The notes beneath the pieces are model-generated. The model ran no database searches. It had not been told where the DNA came from and saw only the letters and a list, made by a program, of their open reading frames with translations. A DNA stretch of 64,000 nucleotides from Ricinus communis (taxonomy: Eukaryota > Streptophyta > Magnoliopsida > Malpighiales > Euphorbiaceae), in contig NC_063260.1 of NCBI RefSeq assembly GCF_019578655.1, positions 7,566,501 through 7,630,500 of the forward strand, written 5' to 3'. The position numbers and the translations under genes are program-made. Each line of letters starts with the position of its first letter. Within the stretch, counting starts at the first letter, position 1. Shown here piece by piece: positions 3,001 through 49,135 of this stretch.

Positions 3001-6000
3001 TTCATTTGAGAAAAATACATGAGAGAAAAAGTAAAATGAAAATGATAAAATTGAAGATGATATTTTAATGTTATAGAATACATTGACAAATTAATATGGA
3101 ATTCATTTGAAAATTCTACTTATTTTGGTAGAATTTAGTTTAGCTATAATTAGTTCCACACAAATTTGAATATATAGAATTTTAAATTAACTTTCACTTC
3201 ATTTAAACCACGTAGACTTTGGATTTGAAATAAATTCTATAAATTTTATAGATTTCAACCAAGCACAATATTAAACACTTCTAATTCTCGATTTAACCTA
3301 ACAAATATCTAAATTCTATTTTCATTATAGTATTAATTAAAATACCTAGCATTCAATACACATGGCAATAAGTGGTTAAATATCACAGAAAATAAAAAAA
3401 TTTGGTATCTATCAAGTTATGGTTTTGGTGGTACCTATCAGGTTACATCAAAAGCTAATGTATTGAAGCGATCAAATAATTAAAGTTTAGGTATTCAAAT
3501 ATATAAATGGACATTTTTTTTTCTCATTCAACTAAACGTTGATTGAGTTAGGAAACATAGGAAGAAGACCATACGGTACACATGCAAGTATACAAGAAAG
3601 CATTTATGCATTCTTAGTTTACAATTTTCTTGGGTACAAGACGTTGACTTTGCTTATTGTTATTTTGATTAAGTGATTGATTCGCACTCGGTAGTCCCTT
3701 TCTCACGAGTCACGAGGATCGCATTTGAATATTTTACAAACATAATATTGTGTTTATATAATTAGTTAATTGCAATTTGTGCATCTTATAATTAGAATTA
3801 GAAGGGCATGCAATAATCTTACAGTTAACAAGTGAGCCTATTTCTTGTAGTCTTGTTGATTAGGACTCAAATCTATTTATTTATTTTAATTACCACAAGT
3901 AATGGGGCCAAAGGTTTAAATTTTGAGTTGAATTAATCTTGGTTTACAATATAAGTTCAGGAGTCGTTTTAAAGTTAATAGTATCCTAAGCTCTCTCTCT
4001 CTCTCTCTCTCTCATTTACATATAATTCTCTCACTGGCTACTGACCTGATCCAAGATCACAAATTCAAGTGACGCCAACAGTATTGTGTTTATACATAAA
4101 ATAAATAAGTCCCATGATGTATTCTACATTATTCTTTTCAAGTTGATCTTACTGTTAAACATACGTAGGCTTTGGTTGGGGGATATTTTTTAGGCTTTTT
4201 AAGGAATAGAATCAAAAAGTGATTTTTGCACATATTTACCTCATCTGATCCCTATTCTTCAACAGTTTTAGGGTCCATCACATATTTTATTTTGTATATT
4301 CAAAAATTACCTATTTGATGTTACTAACATGATATGACGCTTACATAGCATAACATAAATGAGTGACCATCATATAAGCAGAATGTATGCTGACATCAGC
4401 AACATATTTAATTTTATTAATGAACTAAATCAAATGTGCCGATTTAATTTTGTTCAAATTGCATATATATTTCTTTTGTGCACTTTATATCTTATATAAT
4501 GAGTGTGAAAATATAATTTTTTTTTTTATATATATCAAAGATTATATTAGAATGTGTTGTTTAAAATATTTATAAATGACAAAATATTATTTTAAAAATT
4601 TTAATCTAGTTACATATTTAAAATTCGAAGTCAGAAATATCGATCAAGCTACAAGAGACTCTTACCATCTCATTTTACAGGCTGTTGGACAATGTGAGCA
4701 AAGATTGTGAAAGTAGAATTCACATTATATAAAACATTATAACTCCATGAGTATACAAATTAAAAAAAAGTTAATAAGTTATACGTTTAGGCACATGATA
4801 CTTTGTATAGATAGTAGTCGTGGATACGATGTCAATTGTCAAACAAATGAATCAATTTTATAGATTGGCATTTTTAATGGAGAAAGAAAGGTGGAGTAGT
4901 AGTACAACTAATTGACAGAACCGTCAGGATGATGTGATTGTGCACCAAAAATTGTGCTCAGTTTCATCTATTTTCTCACCTATGTTCAAACTTATATAAC
5001 TTGGCACTGAAGAAACATATATATGCTCGTTAAATACTATTTTATATTGACCTTTAATTTAAGAAAAAAAAAAAAGAAGTTGAAGTGAAACACACGGTTT
5101 TAAACAATTAATATGTAGTCAAAATGCTGATACACTGTTGTCAAACATTGCCATCCATATTAATGTCCCTCCATAGTCCACATATTTATATATTTTACTT
5201 TAATTGGTTCATTGATAATGAAATAATCAAATTATTCCATGCCCAGGGGAGAACTGTACATAATTTGTTTCATTTTGATTGAATTTGTAGTAATTATTTT
5301 GTACTGCTTTGTTATTATTAAAATTAACCTTTGCGTCATTTTTTTACATACCTGTGTTCTTGAATCGTGAAGAAGAACATTGATATATACTAATTAATTA
5401 GTATCCTTTGGTCGCATCTTCAATTTCAACCACCTTCTCATAACTTATAAAGTTTTATCATTCACACAAGAGCAAAAACAAAAGAATTGAATTTTCATGT
5501 TGAGAGTATAATTAATTTCTTTTTGGTCAATGAATCCAATTATGGTACTAAAGCGTTAAAGATCTTTGACTTTTTAAAATTTTGATTTCATATTGAGTAA
5601 TTATATACTTAATAATTTTATTAATAAATAGTTCTAAAAGAAACAATTTGGTTCTATATTGAATAATCTTATTATTTAGTAACAAATAAATTAATTATTA
5701 AAAGGATATATCTCGAGAAAAATAAGAATATGTACAGATAAAATAAACTTTAGCTTTACTGGTGCAGCAAGTATTTAAGAATTTCTTCAAAATATATAGC
5801 TGTTAATGATGTATTGAATTGTTTATATTAATCTATATACTAGGTTTGTTCTGAATATATTAACTGTCTTAAAAAAATCTGAATAATTTCTAATATTTAA
5901 TAATTATTAATCTACTGAGCATTAAAGAGTTGATTGTATTGTTTATTATTTTATTCGAATCATTTTCTTATGCTGAGGTTGACCAAATTTAACAAAGATA

Positions 6001-6231
6001 TCTGAAACATTCCCTTCACCTTGATCTAATGTGTGACCAATTGCCTGTAAATGGAGCAGTTTAAGAGAAATATATAATTTTTCTTGTCTTTTTTCTTTTT
6101 TTTTTTTTTTAGTTTGACTTATTATCTTTTTCAAATATATATTATATATATGGGAATGTCCAGTGAGCTTGAGTTATTAAAACCAGAAGGTAAAGGCAGT
6201 AGAACACAAGATGAGCAATGAATACGTATAT
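1..6231. other. Gene-free AT-rich intergenic region
   Basis: No coding exon could be supported on either strand. The stretch is AT-rich with many homopolymer runs and a short CT microsatellite near 3992-4012. A MITE-like element at 2970-3271 is listed separately. A less AT-rich patch at about 880-1220 contains a 108-codon minus-strand open frame (889-1215) that resembles no family I know. It has no visible splice partners, so I do not call it a gene. Confidence 0.6.
2970..3271 (+). repeat. MITE-like element, family M1 copy A
   Basis: A stretch of about 300 bp whose ends are inverted repeats. The left end reads ATGTTTGAAATCTAATAAGG, and the reverse complement of the right end reads GTGCTTGGTTGAAATCTATA. 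The interior carries a GAATTCATTTGAAAATTCTAC block shared in variant form with 31563-31857 (same orientation) and 62788-63085 (opposite orientation). It has no coding capacity. Element class is inferred from size, inverted ends and copy number. The ends and target duplication are not exactly resolved. Confidence 0.55.
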
Positions 6232-6655
6232 TGTTGATATTTAGGGATTTGTATCTCTCCCACATTGTTAAGTTATTAAGTTTTAAGGAATATTTCTCTC
6301 ACATTGCTAAGTTAACAATGTTGAGGTACCTTCCAAGCCTATATAATAGAGGCCTCACCTTGTTATTCTATCATCCCAAAAATAAGAGAAAAATATTAGA
6401 GAGTTAACCAATTATTTTTCTCCTATTATAAAGAGAGAATTTTAATTTTTTCTCCTTTATAAATAGAGAGTTTGTAACTCCTATTATTTTCTTATAGTAA
6501 AATTCTTCTATCCTTGCTCGTGGTTTTTACCCTAATTTGTTTAGGGGTTTTCCACGTAAATCTGTGTGTTCTATTGTGTATTTTGTCTTACTTTATCTTT
6601 ATTTTCTCAAATTATTAGCTGTGATTTTGCTCTATCAGGTTCATATTTTTCTACA
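6232..6655 (+). repeat. 5' LTR of Copia element
   Basis: Starts TGTTGATATTTAGGG and ends TTTTTCTACA. About 96% identical to 10922-11345 by hand alignment. It contains a TATATAATAG box near 6340, a plausible core promoter for the element. TG/CA ends and the flanking TATAT duplication fix the boundaries to the base. Confidence 0.95.
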
Positions 6656-6657
6656 AT

Positions 6658-6669
6658 TGGTATCAGAGC
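6658..6669 (+). other. Primer binding site (initiator tRNA-Met)
   Basis: TGGTATCAGAGC begins two bases after the 5' LTR and is the standard plant Copia primer site, complementary to the 3' end of initiator methionine tRNA. It looks intact. Confidence 0.92.
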
Positions 6670-6939
6670 TTGGTTGGCAAGAAATTTCTTAAAATTCGGT
6701 GGTTGCAGCTCAGTCTGATCTTTCACATCAGAAGAGGGTTTTTTGAGGTTTCTTTGGTGCAAAAGAGCTTGTGGAGTAATAAGAATACTTACAATTTAGG
6801 GAAGGTTCTGTCTAAGGAGATTGGTATTTAAGAGGTTCGCTTGTGACCCTTCAGTCTTTCCTGGGAACTTACCTAGTGAGTTGTGTTCATTACTACGATT
6901 CATTTTACAAGCTAAAAGGCACCGTTTGTGATAGAAGCA

Positions 6940-7681
6940 ATGGCAGCAAAATTTGAGATTGAAAAATTCAACGGGAGTAATTTCTCACTGTGGAAATTAA
7001 AGATAAAGGCTGTATTGAAAAAAGATAATTGTCTTGCGGCTATCAGTGAACGACCGACAACACTCACAGATGATAATAAGTGGAACGAGATGGATGGGAA
7101 TGCTATTGTAAACCTTCATCTGGCACTTGCAGATGGGATCTTGTCCAGTATAGAAGAAAAAAAAAACGGCAAAGGAGATTTGGGACCACCTCACTAGACT
7201 GTACGAAGCCAAGTCATTATACAATAAAATTTTCCTTAAGAGGAAACTTTACACATTAAGAATGTCAGAATCTACTTCAGTGACAGAGCACCTTAATATC
7301 TTGAATACTCTATTTTCTCAACTCACATCTTTGGGCTATAAAATAGAGTCACAAGAACGTGTAGAACTTCTACTCCAAAGTCTACCTGATTCGTATGATT
7401 AACTCATCATCAGTTTGACAAATAATGTTGTTACCGAAATTGTAGTCTTTGATGATATAGCAGCCGCTATTCTTGAAGAAGAAAATCGGCGAAGGAACAA
7501 GGAAGACAAGCAGGCAGGTTCACAACAGGTGGAAGCCTTGATGGTGATGAGAGGGAGATCAACAGAACGTGGTCCAAATGGGAGTCACAATCATGGTAGA
7601 TCAAAATAAAAAAGTAAGAAGAATTATAAATGCTACCATTGTGGTAAGAAAGGTCACCTGAAGAGGGATTCTTGGAGTCTG
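6940..7681 (+). pseudogene. Copia gag remnant
   Basis: Would encode the capsid/nucleocapsid part of the retrotransposon. The ATG at 6940 opens a gag N-terminus with the family-typical F-x-G-x-N-[FY]-x-x-W pattern. The frame is lost in an A-run at about 7157-7166, where the downstream homologous sequence moves to another frame. That frame carries TAA stops at 7400-7402 and 7607-7609. The CCHC zinc knuckle at 7631-7672 keeps Cys, Cys and His, but the fourth ligand is Ser (TCT at 7670-7672), so even the RNA-binding finger is damaged. This is a decayed gag, not a host gene. Confidence 0.9.
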
Positions 7682-7705
7682 AAGAATTCCAATCCTCAAG
7701 AAAAT

Positions 7706-9217
7706 GTGGCATGCACTTCGGATGATGGAAATGTATTGTGCTGTGAAGCAGCAATATCAACTGAGAGCAGAAAGAGATTTGCTGATGTATGGCTTCTTGA
7801 CTCAGGAGCAACTTATCACATGACCTCTCGAAGAGAATGGTTCCATCATTATGAACCTATCTTAGGAGGATCTGTGTATAGTTGTGAAGATAATGTCTTA
7901 AAAATCATAGGCATTGGAACTATTAGGTTGAAGATGCATGACGGTACAGTCCGCACTATTCAAGGAGTGCGACATGTGGAAGGTCTGAAGAAGAATTTAT
8001 TATCTCTGGGACAGCTGGATGATCTTAATTGCATTATCAAAGTTCAGAAAGAAATCATGAATATTAGCCGAACAGCGCTTGTAATTATCAAAGGAGAAAA
8101 AATTGCTGCTAATTTGTATATGTTTTTGGGAGAGACTGTGCATGAAGCAGAAGCATATGTTGCTTCAAGTAGTTCAAGCGAGAGATCTGCAATGGTGTGG
8201 CATCAGAAGCTTGGACATATGTTTGAACAAGGCATAAAGGTTCTTGCTGAGAAAAATCTACTTTCTGGTCTCACAAATGTGTCATTACCCTTTTGTGAGC
8301 ATTGCATAACAAGCAAGCAGCATCGACTACAGTTCAATACATCCAATTCTAGAAGCAAGGATGTTCTAGAATTAGTTCACTCTGATGTATGGCAAGCACC
8401 AGTTTCATCACTAGGAGGAGCTAAGTACTTTGTGTCCTTCATCGATGATTACTCCAGGAGATGTTGGGTGTATCCTATCAAGAGCAAGGGAGATGTATTT
8501 GCAGTTTTCAAAACTTACAAAGCGCGGGTTGAACTTGATTCAGGCAATAAGATCAAGTGTTTGAGGACAGATAATGGAGGAGAATACACAGGTAATGAAT
8601 TTAATAGTTTTTGCAAGCAAGAAGGCATCAAGAGGCAGTTCACTACGGCATACACTTCTCAATAAAATGGAGTGGCAGAGCGGATGAACAGAACTCTGTT
8701 AGAAAGAACTAGAGCATTGTTGGGAGCTGCAGGCCTAAATAAGGCATTTCGAGGCGTTAACACACTTTGTTATGTGATTAACCGGTCTCTATCTACAGCA
8801 ATTGATCAAAAGACACCGATGGAGATATGGACTGGGAAGCCAGTTGATTATTCAAACCTCCATATATTTGGAAGTCCTATGTATGTGATGTATAATACCC
8901 AAGAAACTATGAAGCTGGATCCAAAATCCAGGAAGTGTTTGTTCTTGGAATATGCTGATGGTGTGAAGGGGTATCGCCTGTGGGATCCCACTGCCCACAA
9001 GGTTATAATCAGCAGGGATGTAATCTTCTTAGAAGATAAATTGAAGGGAGAAGATGATAGCACTTCAAAAGAAAATTCAGAGACTACAACTATACAGGTG
9101 GAAAGAAAGTCTACAGAAGAAGATTCTTCTGAAGCAGCACCAGAGCACGAAGAGGAAGAACCAGTCGAGTTTGAAGAGCCAGCCGAGTTTGAAGAGTCTG
9201 AAAGGAAAAACGTATAA
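7706..9217 (+). pseudogene. Copia pol remnant: protease and integrase
   Basis: Protease is marked by the Asp-Ser-Gly active site at 7799-7807. Next comes the GAG-pre-integrase HHCC finger (His residues near 8200-8220, Cys pair near 8296-8307), then the integrase core. The DDE residues are visible: Asp at 8384-8386, Asp at 8570-8572 and Glu at 8678-8680. A TAA at 8663-8665 sits where the family has a glutamine codon, and the frame continues unchanged after it, so this is a point nonsense mutation. The frame ends at 9215-9217, and the reverse transcriptase resumes in a different frame, implying a nearby frameshift. Confidence 0.92.
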
Positions 9218-9231
9218 AATTTACACCAACC

Positions 9232-10845
9232 TTGCAGAAAGATTATGATATAGGCAGCAATGTCGCATACTGTCTTCTAACTGAGGAAGGGGAGCCATCA
9301 ATTCTCCAAGAAGTAATGAGCAGTTCATATGCATCTCAGTGGATTGCAGCAATGCAAGAAGAGATGGAAGCTCTACATAAGAACAAGACTTGGGAGCTTG
9401 TGCCACTACCACAAGGAAGAAAGGCCATTGGCAACAAATGGGTCTTTAAGATCAAAAGAAATAGTGATGATCAAGTTGAGCGGTTTCGTGCAAGAATGGT
9501 GGTGAAAGGATATGCTCAGAAGGAGGGGATTGACTTCAACGAAATATTTTCCCCTGTGGTTCGATTAACAACTGTTCGATTAGTCTTGGCGATGTGTGCT
9601 ATATTTGACTTACATCTAGAGCAGCTAGATGTGAAAACAGCTTTTCTTCATGGAGAGCTTGAGGAAGAAATTTATATGCTCCAGCCATAAGGTTTTGAAG
9701 AAAAAGGAAAGCGGAACTTGGTTTGTAGGTTGAACAAATCTTTATACGGTTTAAAGCAGGCGCCGAGGTGTTGGTATAAGAGATTTGATTCCTTCATCAT
9801 GAGTCTTGGATACAACAGACTTAATGCAGACCCTTATGCATATTTCAAGAGGTTTGGTAAAAGTGATTTTATTATCTTACTGTTGTATGTAGATGACATG
9901 TTGGTAGCAGGCCCCAACAAAGATCATATTGAAGAACTAAAGGCACAGTTGGCTAGGAAATTTGAAATGAAGGACTTGGGACCAGCAAACAAGATTCTAG
10001 GGATGCAAATTCACCGAGACAGAAACAATAGGAAGATTTGACTTTCTCAGAAAAATTATTTGAAGAAGGTCTTGCGACGCTTCAATATGCAAGATTGTAA
10101 GTCAATTTCTACCCCACTTCCCCGTTAGTTTCAAATTATCCTCCAAAGATGAGTCCTAGCGTTGAAGAAGGAAGGATGGAAATGTCTCGAGTACCGTATG
10201 CATCAGTAGTGGAGAGTTTAATGTTCGCAATGATTTGTACACGACCAGACATTGCACATGCAGTGGGAGTAGTAAGTCGGTACATGGCAAATCCTGGTAG
10301 AGAGCATTAGAATGCTATAAAGAGGATCCTAAGATATGTTAAAGGAACCTCAGATGTTGCATTGTGTTATGGAGGATCAGACTTTATTATCAGAGGATAT
10401 GTTGACTCAGATTATGCAGGTGATCTTGATAAAAGTAAATCTACTACAGGGTATGTGTTCACACTTCGCGTGTGAGTGGGTATCAAAACTGCAGTCAGTT
10501 GTGGCGACATCAACAACAGAAGCAGAATATGTAGAAGCTACACAAGCTAGTAAGGAAGCGGTATGGTTGAAAATGATGATGGAGGAACTCAGGCACGAAC
10601 AAGATCATATTCCTTTGTTCTGTGACAGTCAGAGTGCCTTGCATCTCGCAAGGAATCCAACTTTTCATTCAAAGTCAAAGCACATACGTGTCCAGTATCA
10701 CTTCGTTCGTGAAAAAGTGGAAGAGGGCACTGTGGATATGCAAAAAATTCATACTAAAGACAACCTAGCAGATTTTCTGACGAAGGCAGTTAACACTGAT
10801 AAATTTATTTGGTGTCAATCCTCTAGTAGCCTGATAAAAGTATAA
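9232..10845 (+). pseudogene. Copia pol remnant: reverse transcriptase and RNase H
   Basis: The reverse transcriptase N-part has the conserved W-x-x-A-[MI]-x-x-E-[MI] block and the L-D-V-K-T-A-F-L-H-G motif. The catalytic Tyr-Val-Asp-Asp box is intact at 9886-9897. A nonsense codon at 9688-9690 is followed by the same frame from 9718, and another stop at 10039-10041 ends the palm. RNase H is recognisable to 10845, including the T-E-A-E-Y and C-D-S-Q-S-A blocks, but a frameshift separates its first part from the rest near 10470. This is a clear non-functional relic of the retrotransposon polyprotein. Confidence 0.92.
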
Positions 10846-10910
10846 GCAGCATGGAAAGGCAAGGAAGAAAGAACGGTGTGAAGATCTAACTGATCCTCAA
10901 TCAAATCTTC

Positions 10911-10921
10911 AAGTGGGAGAT
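10911..10921 (+). other. Polypurine tract of Copia element
   Basis: AAGTGGGAGAT lies immediately 5' of the 3' LTR and matches the usual plant Copia plus-strand primer tract. It appears intact. Confidence 0.85.
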
Positions 10922-11345
10922 TGTTGATATTTAGGGATTTGTATCTCTCCCACATTGTTAAGTTATTAATTTTTAAGGAGTATTTCTCCCACATTGCTAA
11001 GTTAACAATGTTGAGGTACCTTCCAAGCCTATATAATAGAAGCCTCACCTTGTTATTCTATCATCCCAAAAATAAGAGAAAAATATTAGAGAGTTAAGCA
11101 ATTATTTTTCTCCTATTATAAAGAGAGAATTTTAATGTTTTCTCCTTTATAAATAGAGAGTTTGTAATTCCTATTATTTTCTTATAGTAAAATTCTTCTA
11201 TCCTTGCCCGTGGTTTCTACCCTAATTTGTTTAGGGGGTTTTCACGTAAATCTGTGTGTTCTATATTGTATTTTATCTTATTTTATCTTTATTTTCTCAA
11301 ATTATTAGCTGTGATTTTGCTATATCAGGTTCATATTTTTCTACA
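10922..11345 (+). repeat. 3' LTR of Copia element
   Basis: Same length (424 bp) and same TG...CA ends as the 5' LTR. Followed directly by the TATAT target duplication at 11346-11350. Confidence 0.95.
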
Positions 11346-34940: not shown

Positions 34941-35333
34941 TAGATATGTCAAAAGTCATTTCTCTACTTGGCATCGTATTTTTCTTACTTTTGTGTCCAA
35001 TTTTATTACTTTGTTCTCCCAATATTTGTATATTATTGTCTTTATAATATTGGTAATTGCTATTTATTTTTGAATTTTAGTTCTAGCATTTGTTTGTATT
35101 TTATATATTATTACTAACATGTTCTACATTAATAAAGTGATTATTGGTTTGATGTGATTATAAAAGTTTAAATGAGTTATTACTAACACATAAGAGTTGA
35201 CTTTAGGGCTACCGACTGTAATTATTCAATTAGTAATTCATATAGGCTCGAACTCGGGCTATTATATTAAATAATTCCAAACTATATCACAAAGATTTGG
35301 CATATAATGATATAAATTATTTGATTATTTAAA

Positions 35334-35487
35334 GGCAAAACCCAAGATTTGGCCCCTGAACTATTAACATTTATTTCAATAGGCCCTCGTACAAATAATT
35401 TATTTGATTGAGCCCTCAAACTATTAATTAGGCTCATTTGAAGGACTTTCTTGATAGCCTTATGGTCTGTGCTCAAAACGCTCTTAA
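35334..35487 (+). repeat. Left terminal inverted repeat of MULE
   Basis: Pairs with 40201-40354. The best-kept segment contains ATTGAGCCCTCAAACTATTA, identical in both arms. In MuDR-type elements the terminal repeats carry the promoters, so this arm probably drove the transposase. Confidence 0.92.
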
Positions 35488-36160
35488 TTGAGTGGTGGAG
35501 TAGAAATAACACCGCCTTGGAGTATTTTTGACAAGAAAACGATGACAAGAAAAGAGAAAGACAATAAAAAAAGGATTACAAACTTAACAAAATGACATTG
35601 TTTTAGTTAGAATCCCTAATTAAAGTTAGGGATTTGACAATTTTCATCACAGACATACTGATAAAAAGCAAGAGAGAAAATGAAATGAGTTAGGATAAAG
35701 TGAGTGTTTATTTCATAAACTAAAAAAAAGCTATCGTAGGTATATTATTCGAGTATCGTGCTTCAAAAGGCGGTGGACCAAGCTTTAACTGTCTTGTTTG
35801 TGTAGGAAATTTTTTTTTAATCTAGTGGGGGAACGACACATTGTGTTTGAAAAAGTATATATTCTTTATTCTCTTGCACTATTAACCTTTTCCATATAGC
35901 GAAACTAAAATTTTAATGGCAATTATTGAATCTGTTATTGTGTTAGGATGGGTATTATTAGTGTTTTGTTGTTTCTTTAAATATATAGTATTTTATATTT
36001 GTCGGAGGTGGTCCCTGCACTTAGAGTTAGGTATATACCGCATTTGACCATTTTAAAAATTAATTGTAAAGTATATTAACAATAATGTAATGTATATATT
36101 GGTGTTTGATTTTTGTGGTATGAGTAATTATGACTTTTATTCTTTTGATTACGGCAGATT

Positions 36161-38812
36161 ATGGCTTGTTATTATGCTAAGTTAGTAATTAGTGCTGGTG
36201 GGATGTTAATTAGAGGTAATAATCCACATTACTTAAGTGGAGTTGCCAATGTAGTAGAGGAAAATTTTAACTTGGATTTATTGTCATATCCAAATCTGTT
36301 AGCATATGTTAAAGAATTGGGATATACAAGGATATGGGGTTTATATTATTTGGATAGTAGTGGCTTTACTTTATTAACTGATGATGCTAGTATGATGCAA
36401 TTTGGTGAGAAACTTAAAATTGGTGATGAACTACATGCGTATATAGATCACTCTTTTGACAGAAATAATGGGCAAGGCAAGCTTAATCAGCCATTTATTG
36501 AAGTTGATAGTAGTCAGAATTTTGTTGTAACTGAAAAGGATTATAATGAGTTTATAAAAGAGGTTGGGATTTCTGTGAGGGTACAAAATAAAGAAGAAGA
36601 TGATGATGACTAGCAAGAGAGAGGGTTAGGAACTTCTGGAAAAGTACTAAGACAAATGTGGTCAGTGATGATATATGTGATAAGGTTCAAATACAAAAAA
36701 GTGAGATTGTTGAAGATGAGGATGAGATTAGAGGGAATAGTGATAATAAGTCAACCAACAGTTCTAAATATATTGATAGTGATGACCTAGGGAGTTATTA
36801 TAGTGAATCAAGTGAGAGTTGTGGGAATGATGTAAAAAGAAGAGCTAGTACAAGAGTGAAGTTTGATGTTGAGGTTTCCATACTAGTTTTCTGTTTGGGA
36901 ATGGTGTTTGATAATGTTACTTAATTTAGATATGAATGTGCCAAATATATTATAATGGAGGGTTTACAAGTCCATTTTGTGAAAAATGAGGCTAAAAGGG
37001 TTAGAATATATTGTAAGAAAGGTTGACCTTTGGTTTTGTTTGAAAACGTTGATAGTATGAATGAGATTTTTATTGCGAAGACTTATCACCCTAGGCATAA
37101 ATGTATTAGAATTGACATAAAAGGATGACAAACTCAATATTTTTAGCCATACTCTTCAAGAGCAGAATTATGACACAACCTATTATAAAGATTAAAGAAA
37201 AAAAGCTTTGTGTAGGATAGAATTCAAATTGAATGCAAGCATGACAGTTTATAGGAACACTAAAGTGAAAGTGATGAAGCAGATACTTAGAGATTATCAA
37301 GATCAGTATACTGACTTGGTTGATTATCTAGAGGAAATGGAAGTGACAAATCCTGGAATTACTTGTATTGTCAAATCAAGTAATGAATATGGTGGTGAAA
37401 TAAATCTATTTAAAAAAATATATGTATATTTTCAAAGCTATAAACAAGGTTAGGTTGAAGGATGTAGGTCAATTTGATCCTAAATGGGTGTTTTTTGAAG
37501 GGCCTTTGTAAGGGACAAATCTTATGTGCCACTAGGAGGAATGAGAACAATCAGAAGCTCCCATTAACCTAGGTAGTTGCAAATATTAAGAATAAAAATA
37601 CATGGGCCTAGTTTTTAAAATGTCTGAAGCATGACTTACCATTAGGAGATAAAAAAGGGTTTATAATCATTTCTGATATGCTAAAGGTTAGTAAATCTAT
37701 TTACTTTTCTAATTATGCTTAATCTTCTTTATATTAAATTTGATGTCTTGAGCTGAATTATATTATGTTTTCAAGGCCTGGAAAGTGCCATATCTAAAGA
37801 ATTGCCCAATATATGCATTATCGAATGTATGGTATACATATTTATGATGCTTAGGCCAAGAAATGGAGGGGAAAGGAGAGGAAAAAGGTATTTTGGGCCT
37901 GTGTAGAGTCTATATTCTAAAATCAGTTAAAGATTAATATTAAGGAGTTAGAAAGGTTTGGGTGGAGCATTGTGGATGATTTATTTGAGCACCCAATGTA
38001 TCAATGGGTTAAGACTTTTTTTTCCCTTGGACTTACCAAAATGTGATGTGGTTGATAATAGAAAGTAGCTTGAACTTACTATGCCGGATGACATTAGAAA
38101 GTAGGTGATGAATAATACCTAGAAGAAAATAAATTTTGCCAGCACTTGGATATTAGATATCTCTCCTAAGGTATTAGGAAAGCTTGAAAAGAATAAGGAA
38201 CAGAGTTATATATGGTACAATGATTTCAATGAAGATTAAGAATTTGAAATCACTTTCATTCACAATGCTATTGTTAGGCACACAATGCATTTGGAGAATA
38301 AAACATGAACATGCAGAGAATGATAGGTGACTGGAATTCCATGTTACCATGTAGTATGTGTTATTTACAGTCAAGACAAGGATCCAAAAGATATTGTAGC
38401 ACACAGGTATCATAAGGAGACCTACCTAAAAGCGTACTCACATTCATTGCAGCCTCTACGGGGTAAAGAGAGCAAGGGGGAAGGACAAGGATGAAGTGAA
38501 AAAAGTTGGTAAGTTAGATACATTGTAAGTTATGCAAAAGTAGTTTATATAATATAAAATGTTGCCTTAATAACGAGAAAGAAACTGAGATATGTGTCTA
38601 TTTATGATATTTCTATTATAATTTATAAGTGGCTTGGTTCTGAATTGAATTTTATTAACAGGTTCCGATTAAGAAAAGGACAAGGAGAGGTTCAAAGAAA
38701 AATTCAAATGGTGGGCAGCCAACTGAAATTGAGGCAAAAAAAATACTTTTGTGAAATAATACTACAACCATACTAAGTCGAAAGAGAAAAGTAAAGGTTA
38801 AGCTCATTCACT
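36161..38812 (+). pseudogene. MULE transposase (MuDR type) pseudogene
   Basis: It would encode the enzyme that cuts and moves the element. The first intact stretch (36161-36613, 150 codons) matches the PB1-like N-terminal region common in plant MULE proteins (G-G-x-hydrophobic...Y-x-x-G...L-S-Y...V-K-E-L-G-Y). A second frame, 36658-36924, is acidic and Ser-rich and runs into the MuDR N-terminal motif with K-N-E-A-K-R-V-R-x-Y-C near 36983-37017. Pieces of the MULE DDE domain follow: F-x-E-G-P near 37485-37505, a W-A-type block near 37560-37620, and I-I-S-D near 37660-37680. A SWIM-finger remnant G-I-P-C-Y-H lies near 38331-38350. Many stops and frame changes separate these parts. The outer limits are approximate. 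Confidence 0.85.
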
Positions 38813-39521
38813 CATCATAATCTCTGTTTCAAAAAGTTTTAGCCATATTTTGGATGCTTATTAGAATTTTATATGCAAGGACAAATACTAAAGTTGATAA
38901 AGAAGCTATTAACAAAGAACATGCGAGTTGTAGCGCCAAAGGTGGACTTATCCTTTTAATGTGACTGTAAGGAATCCATGCAACAATTCTAGGAATATTG
39001 GTGAGGGAGTTATTGATAGTAGATTTGGAAAAATGATATATTTCAAAGAGGAAGCCCTTATAGAAGGCATGTTTAGAGGCATAAGGTATTCAATATCAAA
39101 GTATAGATTGGTTTGTTAAAAATGGATACAACGTTGCCACAAAAAAATGAAGATAATGGTTCAAGGAAGTATGTCTTTTGGCAGGAACAACATCCAAAGC
39201 AATTGATTTTGTAATAAATTCTATTAATTGATACTTGGTAATTAACTTCTTTGTACTTATTATTTTTGTATTACTCAAGCAGCTAGACTGACATTAAGTG
39301 ATTTTTATTGAATGTTAATCATTGTTATTTTTAATGCATTTTAATCAATCTTATATTCTTAATCTTAATCAATTAATATTAACTTACTATAAATATAATA
39401 CATAAAATACCATATTGTTATTAATCTTTAGCGAATTCTGAGCCAACAAATTGAACAAGTACATGGTCCTAAACATTGAGCCAAAATACTGTCCACAGAT
39501 ACAACACCCAAACACCAAAAG

Positions 39522-40037
39522 CTACAATATTTTGAACAAAAATAACCCCACAACAATAATAAATACAACCATGTAAAATTCTCTACTAAACCTCCAACAC
39601 TTGGCTTCTTGGTTTGCTTCTATCACAACTTCATTTAAAGAACTAATTTGTTTCCTCAATATTTCGATCTCCTCCATGGCCCGATGAAGATGTAGGTTCA
39701 CTGTCTTTACTTTATTCAGCAAAGTAGGAGACCTTTCACTCTTCTACTCATCATGCCACTTAAAGTAATTGCAAAGTGGTGGCTGCAAAAAAAAAAAAAA
39801 AACATGTTAAATCCTACTCAAAAAACATAGAAAAAAAAGCACAGAATAGGTTTCAAAATCCATGATATATCTAAAAAGAGCACCTCCAAAATTTCCTATT
39901 TGGGTTATTTTCACTCATTGAAACAAATAGTTTTACACGACCTCCACACGGGCAATGTAATCTTTAATTGCTCCCAAATAGCCATCATCAAGGAGAAGAT
40001 CGCTTCCACCAGACCCATCTGCACTGTCACCTTCCAT
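39522..40037 (-). pseudogene. GRF zinc-finger / coiled-coil / membrane protein pseudogene inside the MULE
   Basis: Reads leftward from an ATG at 40037-40035, just inside the right inverted repeat. After an acidic start of about 28 residues comes a GRF-type zinc finger: Cys-Pro-Cys-Gly near 39954-39943, then N-P-N-R-K-F-W-R-C, then, after a probable intron ending in a T-rich AG at 39783, C-N-Y-F-K-W-H-D-E. All four cysteines survive. A coiled coil follows (E-E-I-E-I-L-R-K-Q-I-S-S-L), and a C-terminal hydrophobic stretch (V-V-F-I-I-V-V-G-L-F-L-F) probably spans a membrane. Lesions are a frameshift before the first cysteine pair and a TAG at 39744-39746 after the finger. The intron donor is unresolved. 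Function is unknown; GRF fingers bind nucleic acid in some nucleases and topoisomerases. Confidence 0.78.
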
Positions 40038-40200
40038 TTTCTTTTAGGGTTCGATGGTGGTAGAGAAAAAAAAAATAAGATGCTATAATTTCAAGAGAAC
40101 TCTAATTTTAATTTTAGAGTCCCAAAACTAACTTTCTATATGTATATTTTATTTCCCATATTGGCATTCCTTATTATTATTTTTAAAATTTTTAATATCG

Positions 40201-40354
40201 TTAAGAGTGTTTTGAGCACGCACCAAAAGGCTGTTAAATAAAATCCTTTAAATAAGCCTAATTAATAGTTTGAGGGCTCAATCGCTAAATTATTTATATA
40301 GGGACCTATTAAAATAAATGTTAATAACTTAAAGGCCAAATTATAAATTTTGCC
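40201..40354 (-). repeat. Right terminal inverted repeat of MULE
   Basis: Reverse complement of 35334-35487 at about 80% by hand alignment. Its outer end abuts the TTATTTAAA duplication. By analogy with MuDR it probably supplied the promoter of the minus-strand GRF gene that starts 164 bp further in. Confidence 0.92.
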
Positions 40355-40727
40355 TTATTTAAAAACTTAAAAAATACAAAAGAAAATTATAATACAATAA
40401 AATTGTTACATTTATAAATTAGATGTAATGGGATATCTAGCTCAATATTTCATTTTATTTTTATTTCTAACATAATTGATAACTTAAAACAACCTTATAA
40501 ATACTGCAAAATAAAAATTTAGTAAAAAGGAATAAAGACAGCAACAAAGCAGTGAAACCAAAGTAATTTTTTAATGCTTTTCTCATTGTGGTTATTATTA
40601 TTATTATTTTATTATTTATTGTTATTATTATTATTATTAAGAAGAAAATATAAAGCAAAAAACTCCAAAAAGATTTTTGTACTACATGATAAGATGTTAC
40701 ACCTTTCCATAGCATAACAAATCCCAC

Positions 40728-40937: not shown

Positions 40938-41015
40938 AGGGTTCTTTGGTTGCTGTTTTTAAGCTTCAAAAAGAAAGGGTTTTTAGTACTGGTTTTGGAT
41001 CTGTTATTCAAACAA

Positions 41016-44000
41016 ATGGCAACCATGAACCCTTTTGATCTTTTGGGTGATGATGATTATGAGGACCCGACTCAGCTTATAGCAGCAGCTCATCTCAAGG
41101 TGGTTGAGAAGCCTAAGAAGCCGTCTGCTCCTGCACAAGCTCAAGCTCAGCCTGTCAAGCCGGCTAAGCTTCCTACTAAGCCACCTCCTCCTGCTCAGGC
41201 TGGTGAGCTTTTAATTTGTTTTTAATTTGATTTTATTGGCTTTGGGTTTCTTCTGTGTAAAGAAAGATGCGAACTTTATTTGCTTTTTTGATAGTCCGAT
41301 AATTATTTGGTATTGTGCCCTGCTAGTATTAGTGAAGAAAGTGCCATTTTAGTGTTTATATTGATTTTGATTTCCTGTTTGTTGCTTGAAATAGAACAAA
41401 AGAAATGTAAGTAGAATTAATTTACAGTCTTTCACTCTTTGTTTCTTTAATATTTCAGGTTAAATGAATGCAATATTTTCAGCTGTCTTTATTGAACCTT
41501 CTTGTTACTGAATTGATAGAGTCATAAACCCAATGAGTAAATGTGAGTTTGTCAAGTTGAAGTTTTGATTGGAATTAGTATATTGATTATTGATGTTCTT
41601 TAATATAATATCTTAGCAGTACTAGCACAATCACACTTTAGAGATAAGCTTCAGCGTACTTGGTTTTGTTCTATTTAAAGCTACTTGCATGATTGTTCAT
41701 ACTAATTAGGCGAATCTTCTCTATATATGAGACGCTTATGTTTGCTATCATATTACTGGATTGGGCATTAATCTATCTTCACATCAAATATTGTTAATAT
41801 TTTCTAGCTTAGAAAGCAAAAAAAAGTTGCGTGGAGATCAAAATTAGTTAGCATAGAGTTTTTCTCAATCTTGAGTCGTGCTTTTGTTTTGGAAATAAAC
41901 CGTGGCATTTTTGTTTATTGGATTTAATGGAGTACTGTTGTGTATCTTATGTCTTTTCCAATATGTTTAATTTGTTGATTAGTGAGGGAAGGAAAGAGTG
42001 AAGGTGGTCGTGGAGGGGGCAGAGGTGGTGGACGGGGCACTGGCCGTGGTCGTGGAGGTGGCAGAGGATTTGATCGGGAATTGAATAACAATGAGACTAC
42101 TTTTGGTGGAAACAATGGATTTTCTGGTGGGCACAAGCCATCTGAAGAGGGAGAAGGTGGAAAGCCCTCGGAGAGGAGAAGCTATGGTGGGCCTCGTGGT
42201 GGTTTTCGTGGGGGTCGCCGTGGTGGTTTTAGCAATGGTGAAGCTGGTGAAGGTGAACGGCCCCGCAGGTTGTATGACCGCCGCAGTGGTACTGGTCGTG
42301 GGTTAGTATTGTCATTAAAATAATGCTATGCTTAACTACATCCGTATGTTCCCGTATTACTAACAATTAGAATTTGTTTCTCTTGTTTATGATTTATTCT
42401 TTTAACAGAAATGAGTTCAAACGAGAAGGAGCTGGTCGTGGTAATTGGGGAACTCCTGCTGATGAAATTGCTCCGTGAGTGATTTACTCTGCTAATTCAA
42501 CATTTTGTAAAATTCTTGATATTTTACCAGGGTGAATTTTCTTTAACTCAAGGCAAATGTATTTACTTTTGTGATTGATATTTTGTAAACCAAGGGAAAT
42601 TGAGGAACCTTTAATTGAAAATGAAAAGAACATTGGTATTGAGAAGCCGTCAGGGGAGGAGGGTGCTGCAGATGCCAACAAGGACAATCCTATGAATGAG
42701 CTAGAAGAGAAGGAGCCTGAGGACAAGGTGCATTGTCTCTTTCTGGATCTGGTTGTTAGCTTGTTTGCTGCTTAGATGGTTAGGTTGCATGAAAAGTTGA
42801 TTGCACTTATGTTTCTTGTGATGTTCATAACATATGTTGGATGTAGATGAGCAGTAATAAGCTAAAGTAAAGACATTAGAATGATCAAGGTTAGGTTGAA
42901 GTTTTTTGTTTGATTATTAGATTAATGAAGTATGGGTCTGGTGTTTATTCAAGCTTGGCCTGCATTTTATAGTTGTGCCACTCAAGTCATCTGCAGATGC
43001 CTAAGAGTGATATTTCTTTATAAACTAGGTACCTTCGCTGATGAGTTTGTACCTTTGTGGATTGAGGTTGTGCCACCTAGTTTGCAGGCTGTAATCTTGC
43101 TAGAAGTTATAGACAATTTATCTAGCTATATATAAATGAATTAATCGAGTTATTGCTTCAGTAAGGCGACTTCTACAGTCTGCCAAGAACTTAAATGTAC
43201 TGCAGTTGAATAAACCACTGTTGCCTTATATGATTTGTTTTTTTGAAGTTTTGTGAAGTCCACAGTAGCATTTGTATTTCCCATTCTAAGCTAATATTTA
43301 ATTTCCATGTCCTTTTTGCTAATAGGAGATGACTTTGGAAGAGTATGAGAAACTACGTGAAGAAAGGAAGAAAAGTTTGTCTCTGTCAAAGGCTGAGGAA
43401 AGAAAGGTTGACGTGGAAAAAGAGTTTGGCACTATGCTACAGCTTTCAAATAAAAAAGGCAGTGATGAAATCTTTATCAAATTGGTGAGAACAATGATCA
43501 CTTCTTGAATGAGGTATAATATTCTATTTAATCAAATATTCTTATGACTGGCAATTCATGTGGTTTTAAGGGTTCTGAGAAGGACAAAAGAAAGGATGCT
43601 GCTGACAAGGAAGACAGAGCCAAAAAGGTGCGCATCGTTAGGTTCTTTCACTGGTGTCACTTTGAATTAAGCTCGTGTTCGAGATGTTTTGGTTAAAAGA
43701 AAAACTTATGCTCATTGGCTGTCAGTTGGTCTATTTTGGTGCTTTGGCTCTTTTGGAGCTTATCTTTTCCGTTGCAAGGCAAAATAATTTGAGCTGGATC
43801 TATTATTTATTCTTATTTTACCTTAATAAAAAAACTGTAATTTTCGTGCATTTATGCCCTGTATTTTAGTTGTCCATGTTTCTTTGCTTCAGTTTTAGTT
43901 TGCACTTTATGTTTCTCTGTATAGCTTTTTATTCTCACCATGTTGCGTTTGTTGCAACCTTCAATATCATATCTGTTAGTGTGCAATGTACCTTGATGCA

Positions 44001-44370
44001 TGATGATTATGTACATGGGGATGTTGCAAAACATCGTATTGTCCATTCACTCTTTGCTGCAGCAGAATCGATTTTTTCTTTTCAGCCCATCCATATATGC
44101 CTATTCTTTAGGGCAGCAGTTATATACTAATTTGCAGTTCTTTTTTGAAGTTCTGTTGACGGAATGAATGCTGAGTTCTCTGTTAAATGTTTATAGGCTG
44201 TGAGCATCAATGAGTTCCTGAAGCCTGCTGAGGGGGAGAGATACTTTGGTGGACGCGGTCGTGGACGTGGTCGTGGTTCTAGAGGTGGATATGGTCTGGG
44301 CAGCGCACGAGATGTAGCAGCACCCTCAATTGAAGACCGTGGTCAGTTCCCCACCTTGGGTGGCAAGTGA
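41016..44370 (+). CDS. RGGA: RGG-box mRNA-binding protein (RGGA / HABP4-SERBP1 family)
   Basis: Seven exons by GT-AG and frame: 41016-41202, 41983-42301, 42409-42474, 42595-42727, 43326-43484, 43571-43627, 44197-44370. Together they give 364 residues with no internal stop, close to the usual family length. The N-terminus (M-A-T-M-N-P-F-D-L-L-G-D) is the Stm1-like start typical of plant RGGA proteins. Pro/Lys/Ala-rich sequence follows, then an RGG box at about 64-85 and another at 131-145 (G-G-P-R-G-G-F-R-G-G). The acidic HABP4 core with M-T-L-E-E-Y-E-K starts near residue 236, and a C-terminal RG box lies at 325-338. Proteins of this family bind mRNA and ribosomes in the cytoplasm and perinuclear region and are linked to salt and drought responses. 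The promoter has telo-boxes, and a MULE lies just upstream. Identity is secure; the exact paralogue rests on similarity and neighbours. Confidence 0.94.
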
Positions 44371-45871
44371 GATCTTTCTGTGTCTCGCATACCTGCATTG
44401 GTTTTCCACTATGGAATTCCTTTGTGTTCTTCTGAAAGAGTCCGAGTCGAAGGTCATCAGCAGGAAAATTTATTTCCTGAATTAAAAAACCATCTTTAAC
44501 ATTTAGTCTTTTGGGTGTAAATTTTAGATATTCCTCCATGGGCGTATCTCTGCCTGTGATTCCTTCTCGACTTTATGCATGCAGACCTTCAACCCCCCTC
44601 CCCCCTCTCATTTTTTTTTTTTTTTTTTTTTTAATTAGGAGTATGGCGTCATTATTATGTCTTGGACTGAGTAGTGGCATCAGTTTTGGTTTGTAGTAGG
44701 TCAACAGCACTTTGTAGTCTTTTAAAATCTCTTTGCCTGTCAACGTTGCCTGTTGTGTTTTACTTATATTACTTCTCATTTATTACTTCAAGAGAAATTA
44801 ATGACCTTAGTTAAAATAACAGCCGCCGTATTGAGGTCTCTGTTCGTCAAAGTGCTTTAATTGCATCTTATGTACATAATTGGTGTAATCTGATGAAAAG
44901 GGTCGTCAGCCAAACAAATTCCTTAATGCAAATTGGTATATAATTCATCAGGTTGAAGGGTGAGTTATTATTCTTTGCGCTTTGCAATGATAGCATGGTA
45001 AATTAGAAAATTATCAAACACGTGCATAATGCAAGTTTACCAATCAATCAATTGGGGAAGCGATGAAAGTAAGCAACTCGGCTCTTAGCTCGATTGTATT
45101 AGAACTGGAATTCAGATGTAGTTGTCCAAAACTTCAGCTGATGTAGACGTAGGAGTTTTGGTACCGCCATTTCTACAAGTATCGTAGCAGTTGTGTCATC
45201 ATATCATGTAAGATCCTACTTTATCGGTCACTGAAACTTGTCTTAATCTTTGTAGGCAAGGAACCTTTTTAATTAGCGGGTTTGTCCTGGTGGAGAATCT
45301 ATTCTACTTCACATATTAGGTTGGATTCCTGTATTCGCCGTAAAAGCAAAATTACATTTTAAGCTTTCTTAATCTTTGCAGGTAAGAAACCTTTTTAGAT
45401 AACGGGTTTATCCCGGTGGAGGAATTGTTCTACTTCAAATATTAAATTGGATCTCTGTATTCGCCATAAAAGTGAACGCACTTATAAAAATGACAATTCA
45501 CTTGGTCAGTATTGCCACTTATTTTGATTATATTATATAATTAAAAAAAAAATTACTTTTGAATCTCAGGTTGGACGATATGATCCTATCTTCACGTGAT
45601 AGAGATAGATAGAAGAAGAAAGTGGGGTTGTTCCGTCCTGTTCGGGGCGAATCCGTGCGCGGGGAACAGAAATCTGCGCCCCATTTAGAAGTGGCTAGAT
45701 TCAAAACTGTAGACCATGGAAAAAATTATTCATTCTAAAAGGGTGTCATGCTGCTCTTGTTTTGTTTTTGTTTTTTTGATCTATACATGCTGTTATTTTT
45801 ACATCTCTAACAATTGCTTAGAAATTCAATAACTTTTTCCGATAGATGGCCCATGCACTTGAATTTGCCAA
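44371..45871. other. Intergenic region between RGG-box gene and PPR gene
   Basis: Contains the 3' flank of the RGG-box gene, a C-run followed by a T-run near 44593-44631, and an imperfect tandem duplication (45241-45476). A less AT-rich patch at about 45640-45690 contains GTTCGGGGCGAATCC and GCGCGGGGAAC and looks like a fragment of an old transposon. No gene is supported. Confidence 0.6.
45241..45476 (+). repeat. Imperfect tandem duplication of about 115 bp
   Basis: Copy 1 (45241-45357) and copy 2 (45367-45476) both run from TCTTAATCTTTG through ACCTTTTTA, CGGGTTT, GGTGGAG, TTCTACTTCA and CTGTATTCGCC to TAAAAG. The offset is 126 bp. Identity is roughly 80% by eye. The origin is not recognised. 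Confidence 0.85.
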
Positions 45872-47917
45872 ATGAAAACATGGAACAAGTATTTCACGTT
45901 CATACCATTAGGAATGCCTTATTTCTCAAGAAAACTATGTCCCTTCTCCTTTTGTTCTTTCACAACTTCCTCACCGATCAAACACCATAAATCTTTTCTC
46001 TCCACCTCTACCCTCCAAAACCCAGATCCTATATCATTCAATGACTCAAACAAACCACCTAATAATACCCACGATAACATTCTCAACAAATCTTCACCGT
46101 TTCATCACCATAATAATAAAGTCAACGATGTCATCCTGTCCAACCAAGTTATTACTAGCTTTATCAGATCAGGTGACCTGGATTCTGCTCTTGAACTCTT
46201 CAATAACATGACAATTAAAACCACAGTTACATGGAACTCAATTTTGGCTGGCTACTCTAGAAAGCGCGGAAAAATGAAGAATGCCCGTGAACTATTTGAC
46301 AAAATACCTGAACCAGACACAATTTCTTATAACACTATGTTAGCTTGTTACGTGCATAATTCTGATATGGAGAAAGCTCAAGCTTTCTTTGATTTAATAC
46401 CCAATAAAGATCCAGCTTCTTGGAATACATTGATATCCGGTTTTTCCCAGAACGGGAAAATGGCCAAAGCGCACAAGTTGTTCTTGCAAATGCCTTATAA
46501 AAATGTTGTTACGTGGAATGCTATGATATCAGGGTATATAGCATGTGGGGATTTAACTTCAGCTTGGAAGTTGTTTAAAACTATGCCAGTTAAGAATGTT
46601 GTGGCTTGTACAGCTATGATAACTGGGTACATGAAACTTGGATTCATAAAGTTAGCCGAGAAATTATTTAAAGAGATGTCAACGGACAATGTGGTTACAT
46701 GGAATGCTATGATTTCTGGTTTTATTGAAAATTCTAGAGCTGAGGATGGTGTGAAGCTGTTTAGAACAATGGTAGGGTTTGGAATTAGGCCGAACCCGTC
46801 AACTTTGAGTAGCCTTTTGTTAGGTTGTAGTGAGTTGTCTGCTCTACAGTTGGGAAGGCAAGTTCATCAATTGGTTTGTAAGTCTCCGTTGGCTAGTGAT
46901 ATGACTGCTGGCACATCATTAGTTAGTATGTATTGCAAATGTGGAGATTTAGAGGATGCTTGGAAATTGTTTCTTGAGCTTCCAAGGAAGGATGTAGTCA
47001 CATGGAATGCAATGATTTCCGGTTATGCTCTACATGGAGCAGGTGAGAAAGCTCTGAGGTTGTTTGATGAAATGAAGAAGGAAGGAATCACACCGGACTG
47101 GATTACCTTTGTTGCTGTATTATTGGCTTGCAACCATGCTGGTTTTGCAGATCTTGGGCTTAAATATTTTCACTCTATGGTGAGTGATTATGGAGTTGAA
47201 ACTAAGCCAGAGCACTACACATGTATGGTAGATCTTCTTGGTCGAGCTGGTAAGTTGGATGATGCTGTAGATTTGATAAAAAGAATGCCTTATAAACCTC
47301 ATGTGGCTATATTTGGAACTCTTTTGGGTGCTTGTAGAGTACACAAGAATACAGAGATGGCTGAGTTTGCTGCCAAGAACTTGCTTGATCTTGATCCAAC
47401 AAGTGCGACTGGTTATGTTCAACTTGCAAATGTTTATGCATCTCTGAACCAATGGGACAATGTTTCCAAGGTTCGAAAATCAATGAAAAGCAACAAGGTA
47501 GTAAAGATCCCTGGGTACAGTTGGCTTGAAGTTAAGAGTGTAGTTCACAAGTTCAGATCAGGGGATAGGGCACACCCAGAACTGGCTTCAATATATCAGA
47601 AATTGAACGAACTAGAGAAGAAAATGAAGTTAGCAGGATATGTTCCAAATCTTGAATTTGCATTACATGACGTGGGTGAAGAGCAGAAAGAGCAGCTTTT
47701 GCTGCAGCACAGTGAGAAGCTGGCAATTGCATATGGCCTAATCAAATTGCCATTAGGGACTCCCATCCGGGTTTTCAAAAACTTGAGAGTATGTGGTGAC
47801 TGCCATTCTGCTACAAAGTACATATCAGCAATCGAAAGAAGAGAAGTTATCGTCAGAGATAGTATAAGGTTTCATCACTTCAGGGATGGTTTTTGCTCCT
47901 GTGGTGATTATTGGTAG
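45872..47917 (+). CDS. Pentatricopeptide repeat protein, PLS-E-DYW type, probably mitochondrial
   Basis: An intronless 681-residue PPR protein. The first 40 or so residues are basic and hydroxylated with almost no acids, in the manner of a mitochondrial presequence. From about residue 85 come tandem PPR motifs with the repeated V-[TV]-[TW]-W-N-x-[ML]-I-[SA]-G-[YF] signature (near residues 121, 183, 214 and 276). Longer P/L/S motifs follow, then the E and E+ region and a complete DYW deaminase domain. The domain shows H-S-E with His613 and Glu615, the C-G-D-C-H zinc pair with Cys641 and Cys644, and a C-terminal Asp-Tyr-Trp. DYW proteins recognise specific organelle transcripts and convert C to U. 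From memory it matches Arabidopsis At4g16835 in position next to RGGA. No lesion is seen; the target transcript cannot be deduced here. Confidence 0.94.
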
Positions 47918-49135
47918 ATTTGCATCAGACAATCGACGTCTATGAACATGTTCTTCCTAATATGAAGTCCTTAATCTATGAAAACACAAAACTTGTTAAA
48001 GTGCAAGGAAGAACTTGGTTATGCTTAGTCTTACATGAGAAGTGCATCTGGCTATATTCAACCGGTTGAAGTTAATTTCAAATATAAGTTGTTGGGAATA
48101 CATTGCTTTAAGTTGGCTGCTGAATAAGGTTTGATTTTGTTATGGAGGAGAATAGGGTAATTGAGGTAATGTCATGTGTTTCACGAAGTCATATCGGGTG
48201 GTACACCAGAATTTGAGAACCGACTTCGTTGCACTAAACCTAGCATGTTTGGGAACATAAAATGGCAGGCACCAAGGGAAATTGATTGCTCTGGCATGCT
48301 TCAAAGGCTGCTTCTTGTGGAACCTGAGAGTACGTGGAAAGCTGTTCAACAATTCTCAAGTGAAGAAGGGATAGGACTCGTGTTAAGAGGTTCAGAGCAA
48401 TATCAAATCAGGTTGCCTGCGAACCTTATTCTAGGAGAACAGCTTTTAACCCCCAGTGTACGGTCAGAAAATATTGCAACGGAGCAAAGTTGCTATACAA
48501 ACTCTGCTCAGATGTGAATACCTGGTAGCCACACTGCCAGAGAATTCTCTTGCCAGCTTTCGTAGGACAACTTTGGATGCTTTGTGTAATTACTCCATGC
48601 TCGTTCTATTTTCATTTTAGATTAGATTTGAACAGTTAATTTAAGGGCACCCTTTCTACTTTTGTTGATGTCAATTTGGACTTGATTTCAGCAATTCTGT
48701 TTGGGAGCAATTTTTACAGAAATAGAGCCTACTTTCTTAAGACAAAACCACCTTTCACCAACATCAAACCAACAAATAGCAATGCAGCTTTATCATTCCA
48801 TAATAAATGGATCGAACAAAATTTTCCATAATATCGTGCATTCTACTCGAAAATAAGATGAAAGAAGAAAAAAGGAACATATAGGAGATGACCAGCAGAA
48901 TAAGGTGCATACCAGGTAAAATACTGGTATTCACCAATATTCCTAATTTGTACAGATGTTTCTTAAAATCAAATGACATTCAAAAGAATGGAATTTTTAA
49001 CAGTGCTGAGCAGCTGATTAGAAAGAGCAAATCATAACAAATAATTTTCTTATCTAACCATTAAGAAAGAACTAGTTTTACATGCAAACAAAGAACATGG
49101 TTAACATCCCAACCCAACTAAAACTGACTTCCTTT
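47918..49135. other. Convergent intergenic region between PPR and RAB1 genes
   Basis: The PPR gene ends on the plus strand and the RAB1 gene ends on the minus strand, so this holds both 3' UTRs. A 113-codon plus-strand open frame at 48176-48517 has ordinary composition but resembles no family I know. It may be part of a long PPR 3' UTR. I do not call it a gene. Confidence 0.55.

Follow-up and report, generated by a model that had tools for sequence, protein, structure and literature searches.

The locus studied here raises the question of how a gene for a GRF zinc finger protein comes to lie inside a transposon, and whether it belongs there. The stretch of castor bean (Ricinus communis) DNA that we analysed, C5:7566501-7630500, 64,000 nucleotides long and hereafter called the window, contains at positions 35334-40354 a decayed Mutator-like element (MULE) of the terminal inverted repeat type, in which a transposase gene is faced by a second gene, predicted to encode a GRF finger followed by a coiled coil and a C-terminal hydrophobic helix. 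According to our analysis, certain MULE clades very probably have the GRF gene as their resident second gene, which travels with the transposase. We base this on its recurrence in the genome, on the convergent layout of the two genes, on the repeats and duplications that delimit the elements, and on the agreement of the nearer clades between the two genes.

The left (35334-35487, plus strand) and right (40201-40354, minus strand) terminal repeats of the window element, each 154 bp long, align over 155 columns with 80.6% identity (E 7e-34). They are flanked by the 9-bp target site duplication TTATTTAAA, whose two copies, at 35325-35333 and 40355-40363, are identical. Of 58,961 window positions, 2 show a 9/9 match at equal spacing; with the left word restricted to A/T only, the figure is 2 of 4,664, the TTATTTAAA pair being counted in both cases. 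Long terminal inverted repeats, a duplication of about 9 bp and a MULE transposase domain, recognised in the read-through of the broken gene, define the element as a MULE, and its two-gene layout is MuDR-like, in that a second gene runs in from the opposite repeat towards the transposase, as it does in 9/9 other loci of the family that hold transposase coding sequence. The Pack-MULE class, in which a host fragment is carried without a transposase, was considered and is ruled out by the transposase remnant; the GRF gene, moreover, recurs together with the transposase. With the repeats, the perfect duplication and both genes found, the two-gene convergent layout within one delimited Mutator element, as claimed by the original prediction, is confirmed. 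What that prediction overlooked is that both genes are broken; of the two-gene MULE, the window contains a dead copy.

The transposase remnant was traced by read-through Pfam matches over 36161-38464 on the plus strand, where it lies in pieces in two frames with stops, its longest open stretch in an open reading frame (ORF) scan being 154 codons (36149-36613). The read-through comprises 743 residues, with 19 X marks and three more frame joins that are unmarked, and it matches PF00872 with 22.1 bits, above the cut-off of 21, and PF10551 (22.4 bits, E 1.7e-4) and PF03108 (15.2 bits) under their cut-offs of 27.6 and 25. The GRF gene, delimited by read-through, Pfam and hydropathy, occupies 39522-40037 on the minus strand and reads in from the right repeat, its ATG, at 40037, being separated from the inner edge of that repeat by 164 bp, as had been predicted. 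The exon 1 portion of the zinc finger (39872-39954) contributes three of the four cysteines, and exon 2 (39522-39782) encodes the fourth cysteine, the coiled coil and the C-terminal hydrophobic helix. Between them lies a probable intron (39783-39871), with an acceptor after a T tract and an uncertain donor; the castor gene model P0001 likewise leaves this stretch out. The predicted four-cysteine GRF finger is borne out by PF06839, which the read-through matches at E 6.6e-9 with 36.2 bits (cut-off 25.9), a score that rules out a chance ORF, and the claimed membrane helix by the C-terminal hydropathy, which peaks at 2.41 over a span of 19 residues and makes the helix a predicted one. The coiled coil was assigned by eye and from a long helix in the model of a relative, P0012. 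The lesions consist of a frame break just ahead of the first cysteine pair and an in-frame stop at 39746-39744.

One refuting outcome would be that the GRF gene is a single-copy host gene, or that other copies of the element lack it. A DNA search of the castor genome (315.5 Mb in 140 contigs) with the GRF gene gave 14 matches, which rule out the former and resolve into 11 loci, the window and L023-L032. With repeats and both genes mapped, the transposase and GRF genes converge in 10/10 of the GRF loci that hold transposase coding sequence. Both terminal repeats could be placed in seven of the 11 loci, and all seven show a 9-bp duplication, which is perfect in the window element, L025 and L032, and has one mismatch in L023, L027, L028 and L029; the one-mismatch duplications are A/T-rich and would individually be weak evidence. 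One repeat was located in L024, L026 and L031 and none was counted in L030, the search for the ends having failed for L026, L030, L031, L033, L049 and L054. Starting instead from the transposase, we found the GRF gene in 11 of 13 loci, two of which (L033 and L035) belong to a divergent transposase clade at about 59-62% DNA identity. L035 has terminal repeats of its own and a perfect duplication, TTTATCTTA, and brings to eight the number of elements in which the GRF gene is enclosed by both repeats and a duplication, seven of them from the window family. As a control, seven 8.4-kb stretches from elsewhere in the window contained no transposase-profile match (best 36). Further copies, then, carry the GRF gene between similar repeats and 9-bp duplications, and this recurrence rules out a one-off capture. 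We also noted that one of the MULEs, L029 on C8, carries at about 3500-8700 three tandem copies of a block of some 1.7 kb, which includes the GRF gene and a portion of the transposase gene.

The pairing extends to a second transposase lineage. P0012, a GRF protein of Ipomoea nil, gave 51 castor matches at E <= 0.1, and among its top 12 loci, the six that we examined with flanks of about 4 kb (L049-L054) all showed a convergent transposase-profile match, although that at L052 is weak (6.8e-4). The 12 loci L037-L048, taken with flanks of 1.5 kb, showed no transposase in them, which is what the spacing of the genes would predict. With 245 aa of the L049 transposase as a query, we took the best 150 of 778 candidates (146 after merging) and compared them to 96 merged GRF loci from both GRF searches, many of them weak, with E up to 1. 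In at least 15 of the 96, a transposase match lies no more than 6 kb away, with a gap of 2.1-3.1 kb and a convergent orientation in 15/15, where random placement would lead us to expect 0.56 neighbours and reached a maximum of 6 in 5000 trials; since many of the 96 are weak matches, 15/96 does not equal the rate for true GRF genes. Four of the six loci L049-L054 belong to these 15 pairs. Among the 20 top-ranked transposases of the best 150 of 778, ten have a listed GRF locus, and L055, one of the other ten, has weak GRF matches downstream on the opposite strand. By a route through the Pfam MULE domain (149 of the best 150 of 607 candidates, one on C76 having been dropped), the convergent pattern was not seen: three of 63 GRF loci had a neighbour within 8 kb, against 0.49 expected and a maximum of 4, two on the same strand and one divergent. 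The pair at C6:14084033 and C6:14087013 is unlike the convergent ones: a GRF match follows, on the same strand and 3 kb downstream, a MULE domain that lies in a 750-aa open frame.

One could ask whether the GRF loci simply form a dispersed host gene family next to which MULEs happened to insert. Some GRF matches do resemble host genes, such as two in a single 241-aa open frame at C10:1735496-1735762, which has no listed transposase neighbour and is probably a host gene. Yet a host family is contradicted by the eight delimited elements with the GRF gene inside the repeats and duplication, and the orientation and spacing of the GRF-transposase pairs are constant, so that we find this explanation hardly credible.

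Trees of the two genes were compared within the window family. Three nearer clades appear in both, namely (L024, L025), with a support of 87 for GRF and 100 for the transposase, (L026, L027, L029), with 99 and 100, and (L030, L032), with 96 and 100, L031 joining the second of these in the transposase tree only. The deeper order differs, in that the GRF tree unites the L026 group with L030/L032 at 95 and the transposase tree does not. For the transposase, the net divergence between clades at codon positions 1, 2 and 3 is 0.115, 0.106 and 0.325, and this excess at third positions implies that the transposase was under selection while active. Its informative third positions, compared in five segments, were beaten by 64, 0, 83, 664 and 52 of 5000 shuffles. 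The corresponding values are 0.043, 0.059 and 0.086 (overall 0.063) for GRF exon 2 and 0.028, 0.037 and 0.040 (overall 0.035) for the GRF core, with 0.062 for the N-terminal part, 0.094 for the intron, and 0.139 and 0.135 for the terminal repeats, figures that are all rough given the short regions compared and the copies without exon 2. The proposed check for selection on the GRF gene among copies gave a weak third-position excess in exon 2 and none in the GRF core, and codon constraint on the GRF gene of the window family appears weak or absent. In six of ten copies (L024, L025, L026, L028, L030 and L032), a stop occupies one shared aligned codon of GRF exon 1, possibly through shared descent or through recurrent deamination of a methylated site.

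These observations bear on a different alternative, according to which a MULE captured a host GRF gene or pseudogene whose copy number rose by hitch-hiking and which is without function for the element. The lack of clear codon constraint fits such a passenger, as does the stop at one codon in most of the aligned copies, and L023 (C9, 3302-5052) can be read in the same way: it is a 1751-bp deletion derivative that retained the GRF gene and both repeats and lost the coding part of the transposase, only sequence beyond the transposase's end remaining. Against this, the pairing recurs with the transposase clade at about 59-62% DNA identity (L033, L035) and with a further transposase lineage at 15 or more loci, and a useless passenger would hardly keep its convergent orientation and its distance of 2-3 kb through so much divergence. 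Several other plants, in addition, have open gene models with similar motifs. We therefore consider a functionless passenger quite improbable. The suggestion of the original prediction that the second gene represents a captured or co-opted accessory protein holds insofar as the gene recurs and belongs to the element as an accessory; a capture event or a co-opted function would be conjecture.

The resident-gene reading is compatible with a further possibility, namely that the likeness of the GRF genes between sub-clades stems from later transfer of the cassette, by gap repair or recombination, over an older association. The GRF core, exon 2 and intron are less diverged between clades than the terminal repeats or the third positions of the transposase, and that this holds even in the intron suggests exchange between lineages; the disagreement in the deeper branching points the same way. 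The nearer clades, however, agree between the trees, and the roughness of the divergence figures counts against leaning on them. Cassette transfer thus seems to us a serious possibility, if somewhat short of an even chance.

How does the element compare with known systems? In maize MuDR, the transposase gene mudrA and mudrB are convergent and start at opposite repeats, and the castor element is alike in this layout as well as in its long repeats and 9-bp duplication; it differs in its second gene, which encodes a GRF-coiled coil-hydrophobic tail protein. VANDAL21, also a plant MULE, similarly has an accessory gene, the product of which is VANC21. Passages of PMC6446971 give the function of mudrB as unknown, and as apparently needed for integration, and report that most members of several plant MULE clades have an antisense second gene with a plant mobile domain (PMD) and that accessory genes differ by clade. 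According to the same passages, the second gene of MUDR, MUDRAVI2 and MULE-Solanaceae_1 is antisense to the transposase, as in castor, but encodes a PMD where the castor element encodes a GRF protein; the word GRF has no occurrence in the main text of that paper. A literature search limited to open-licence PMC papers, which leaves Repbase and most subscription papers outside it, found no link between GRF zinc fingers and MULEs. A second antisense gene is known from plant MULEs, and the searches made of the open-licence PMC literature found no second gene of the GRF-membrane type. Searches of viral contigs with P0001, P0012 and a 22-bp repeat pattern, and of prokaryote genome contigs with the castor pair A1, found nothing.

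In our reading of these clades, the transposase gene starts at one terminal repeat and the GRF gene at the other, both converging, with the GRF gene grouping with the transposase in the nearer clades and its cassette probably exchanged between sub-lineages. The zinc ribbons of NEIL3 and APE2 belong to the same Pfam family as the castor GRF protein, and are domains of repair enzymes that are neither mobile nor followed by a membrane tail. DNA binding by the GRF ribbon is known from NEIL3 (passages of PMC9266487), and by analogy the castor ribbon may bind the single-stranded or forked DNA of transposition intermediates, the coiled coil may oligomerise the protein, and the hydrophobic tail may tether it to the nuclear envelope or endoplasmic reticulum (ER). 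A role as a helper of transposition or integration would be the most likely one, with anti-silencing as its main functional rival. The specific proposal that the protein stands in mudrB's place and acts through DNA binding, coiled-coil oligomerisation and tail tethering jointly is tentative, and we regard it as possible but doubtful. One could also speculate that the protein is no transposition helper but counteracts silencing, as VANC does for VANDAL21. A silencing suppressor is indeed what VANDAL21 encodes, in the form of VANC21 (PMC8616336), and the clade-specific nature of MULE accessory genes would accommodate such a function (PMC6446971). A chromatin-acting factor with a C-terminal membrane helix would, on the other hand, be unusual, and we think an anti-silencing role unlikely. 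With respect to the helper role, no further case of a cut-and-paste DNA transposon whose helper is membrane-tethered is known to us, although no search aimed at one was made.

The architecture is not confined to castor. A plain query with the GRF protein matched P0001 only, and a profile search returned 23 proteins at E <= 0.01, with E-values that are not independent of the choice of two sequences entered by hand into the query alignment. All 21 of the matches with a species name (21/21) come from what we take to be flowering plants. A hydropathy peak of at least 1.7 occurs within the last 50 residues of 14 of the 23, and plant proteins described as GRF-type domain-containing share with the castor protein the order of GRF finger, coiled coil and C-terminal hydrophobic helix. 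The matches are named hypothetical, uncharacterised or GRF-type, one or two being named otherwise, and transposon appears in none of the names shown. P0012 is 45% identical to the castor locus C4:5420304 and 26% to the window GRF protein, and in its predicted model (mean pLDDT 79.7, pTM 0.43) a small beta ribbon leads into one long helix at residues 68-136. Against the PDB, a profile of the plant relatives matched GRF domains of NEIL3 with E-values of 1.9e-11 and 3.6e-11, and the AP-site lyase entry 5u6z only at E 0.4; by Foldseek, the likeness to NEIL3 is weakly supported (7jl5, probability 0.89, E 0.21). In castor itself, P0001 sits in L023, with 127 of its 129 residues in exact 8-mers, and P0021 has its best match in L027, with just 70 of 121 residues in exact 8-mers; being only partly exact, P0021 may represent a further copy, or the L027 locus as it occurs in another strain. 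Whether the uncharacterised angiosperm family of GRF-coiled coil-tail proteins consists mainly of second genes from one major clade of plant MULEs, and would thus be a widespread, membrane-anchored equivalent of mudrB in dicots, is in our view evenly balanced.

The surroundings of the element comprise a gene for which the Ricinus communis model P0078 matches the window over 518/518 residues, at 45872-47179 and 48269-48514. Within 40938-48514, an RGG-rich gene adjoins a PPR gene, and the Dovyalis and Cinchona proteins P0065 and P0116 combine a hyaluronan/mRNA-binding domain with PPR domains in one predicted protein, which suggests a conserved RGG-PPR neighbourhood. Farther off, 6230-11219 is a Copia-type long terminal repeat (LTR) retrotransposon with 300-nt ends that are 97% identical (6230-6529 and 10920-11219) and a pol region split into several open stretches.

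Little is understood of the accessory genes that plant MULEs carry. If the GRF-coiled coil-membrane protein is a regular MULE partner, many hypothetical plant GRF-type genes could be reassigned to transposons, examples in castor being P0001, which lies inside such an element, and P0021, which has its best match to one. It would also raise the question of why a DNA transposon should need a membrane-anchored protein that probably binds single-stranded DNA.

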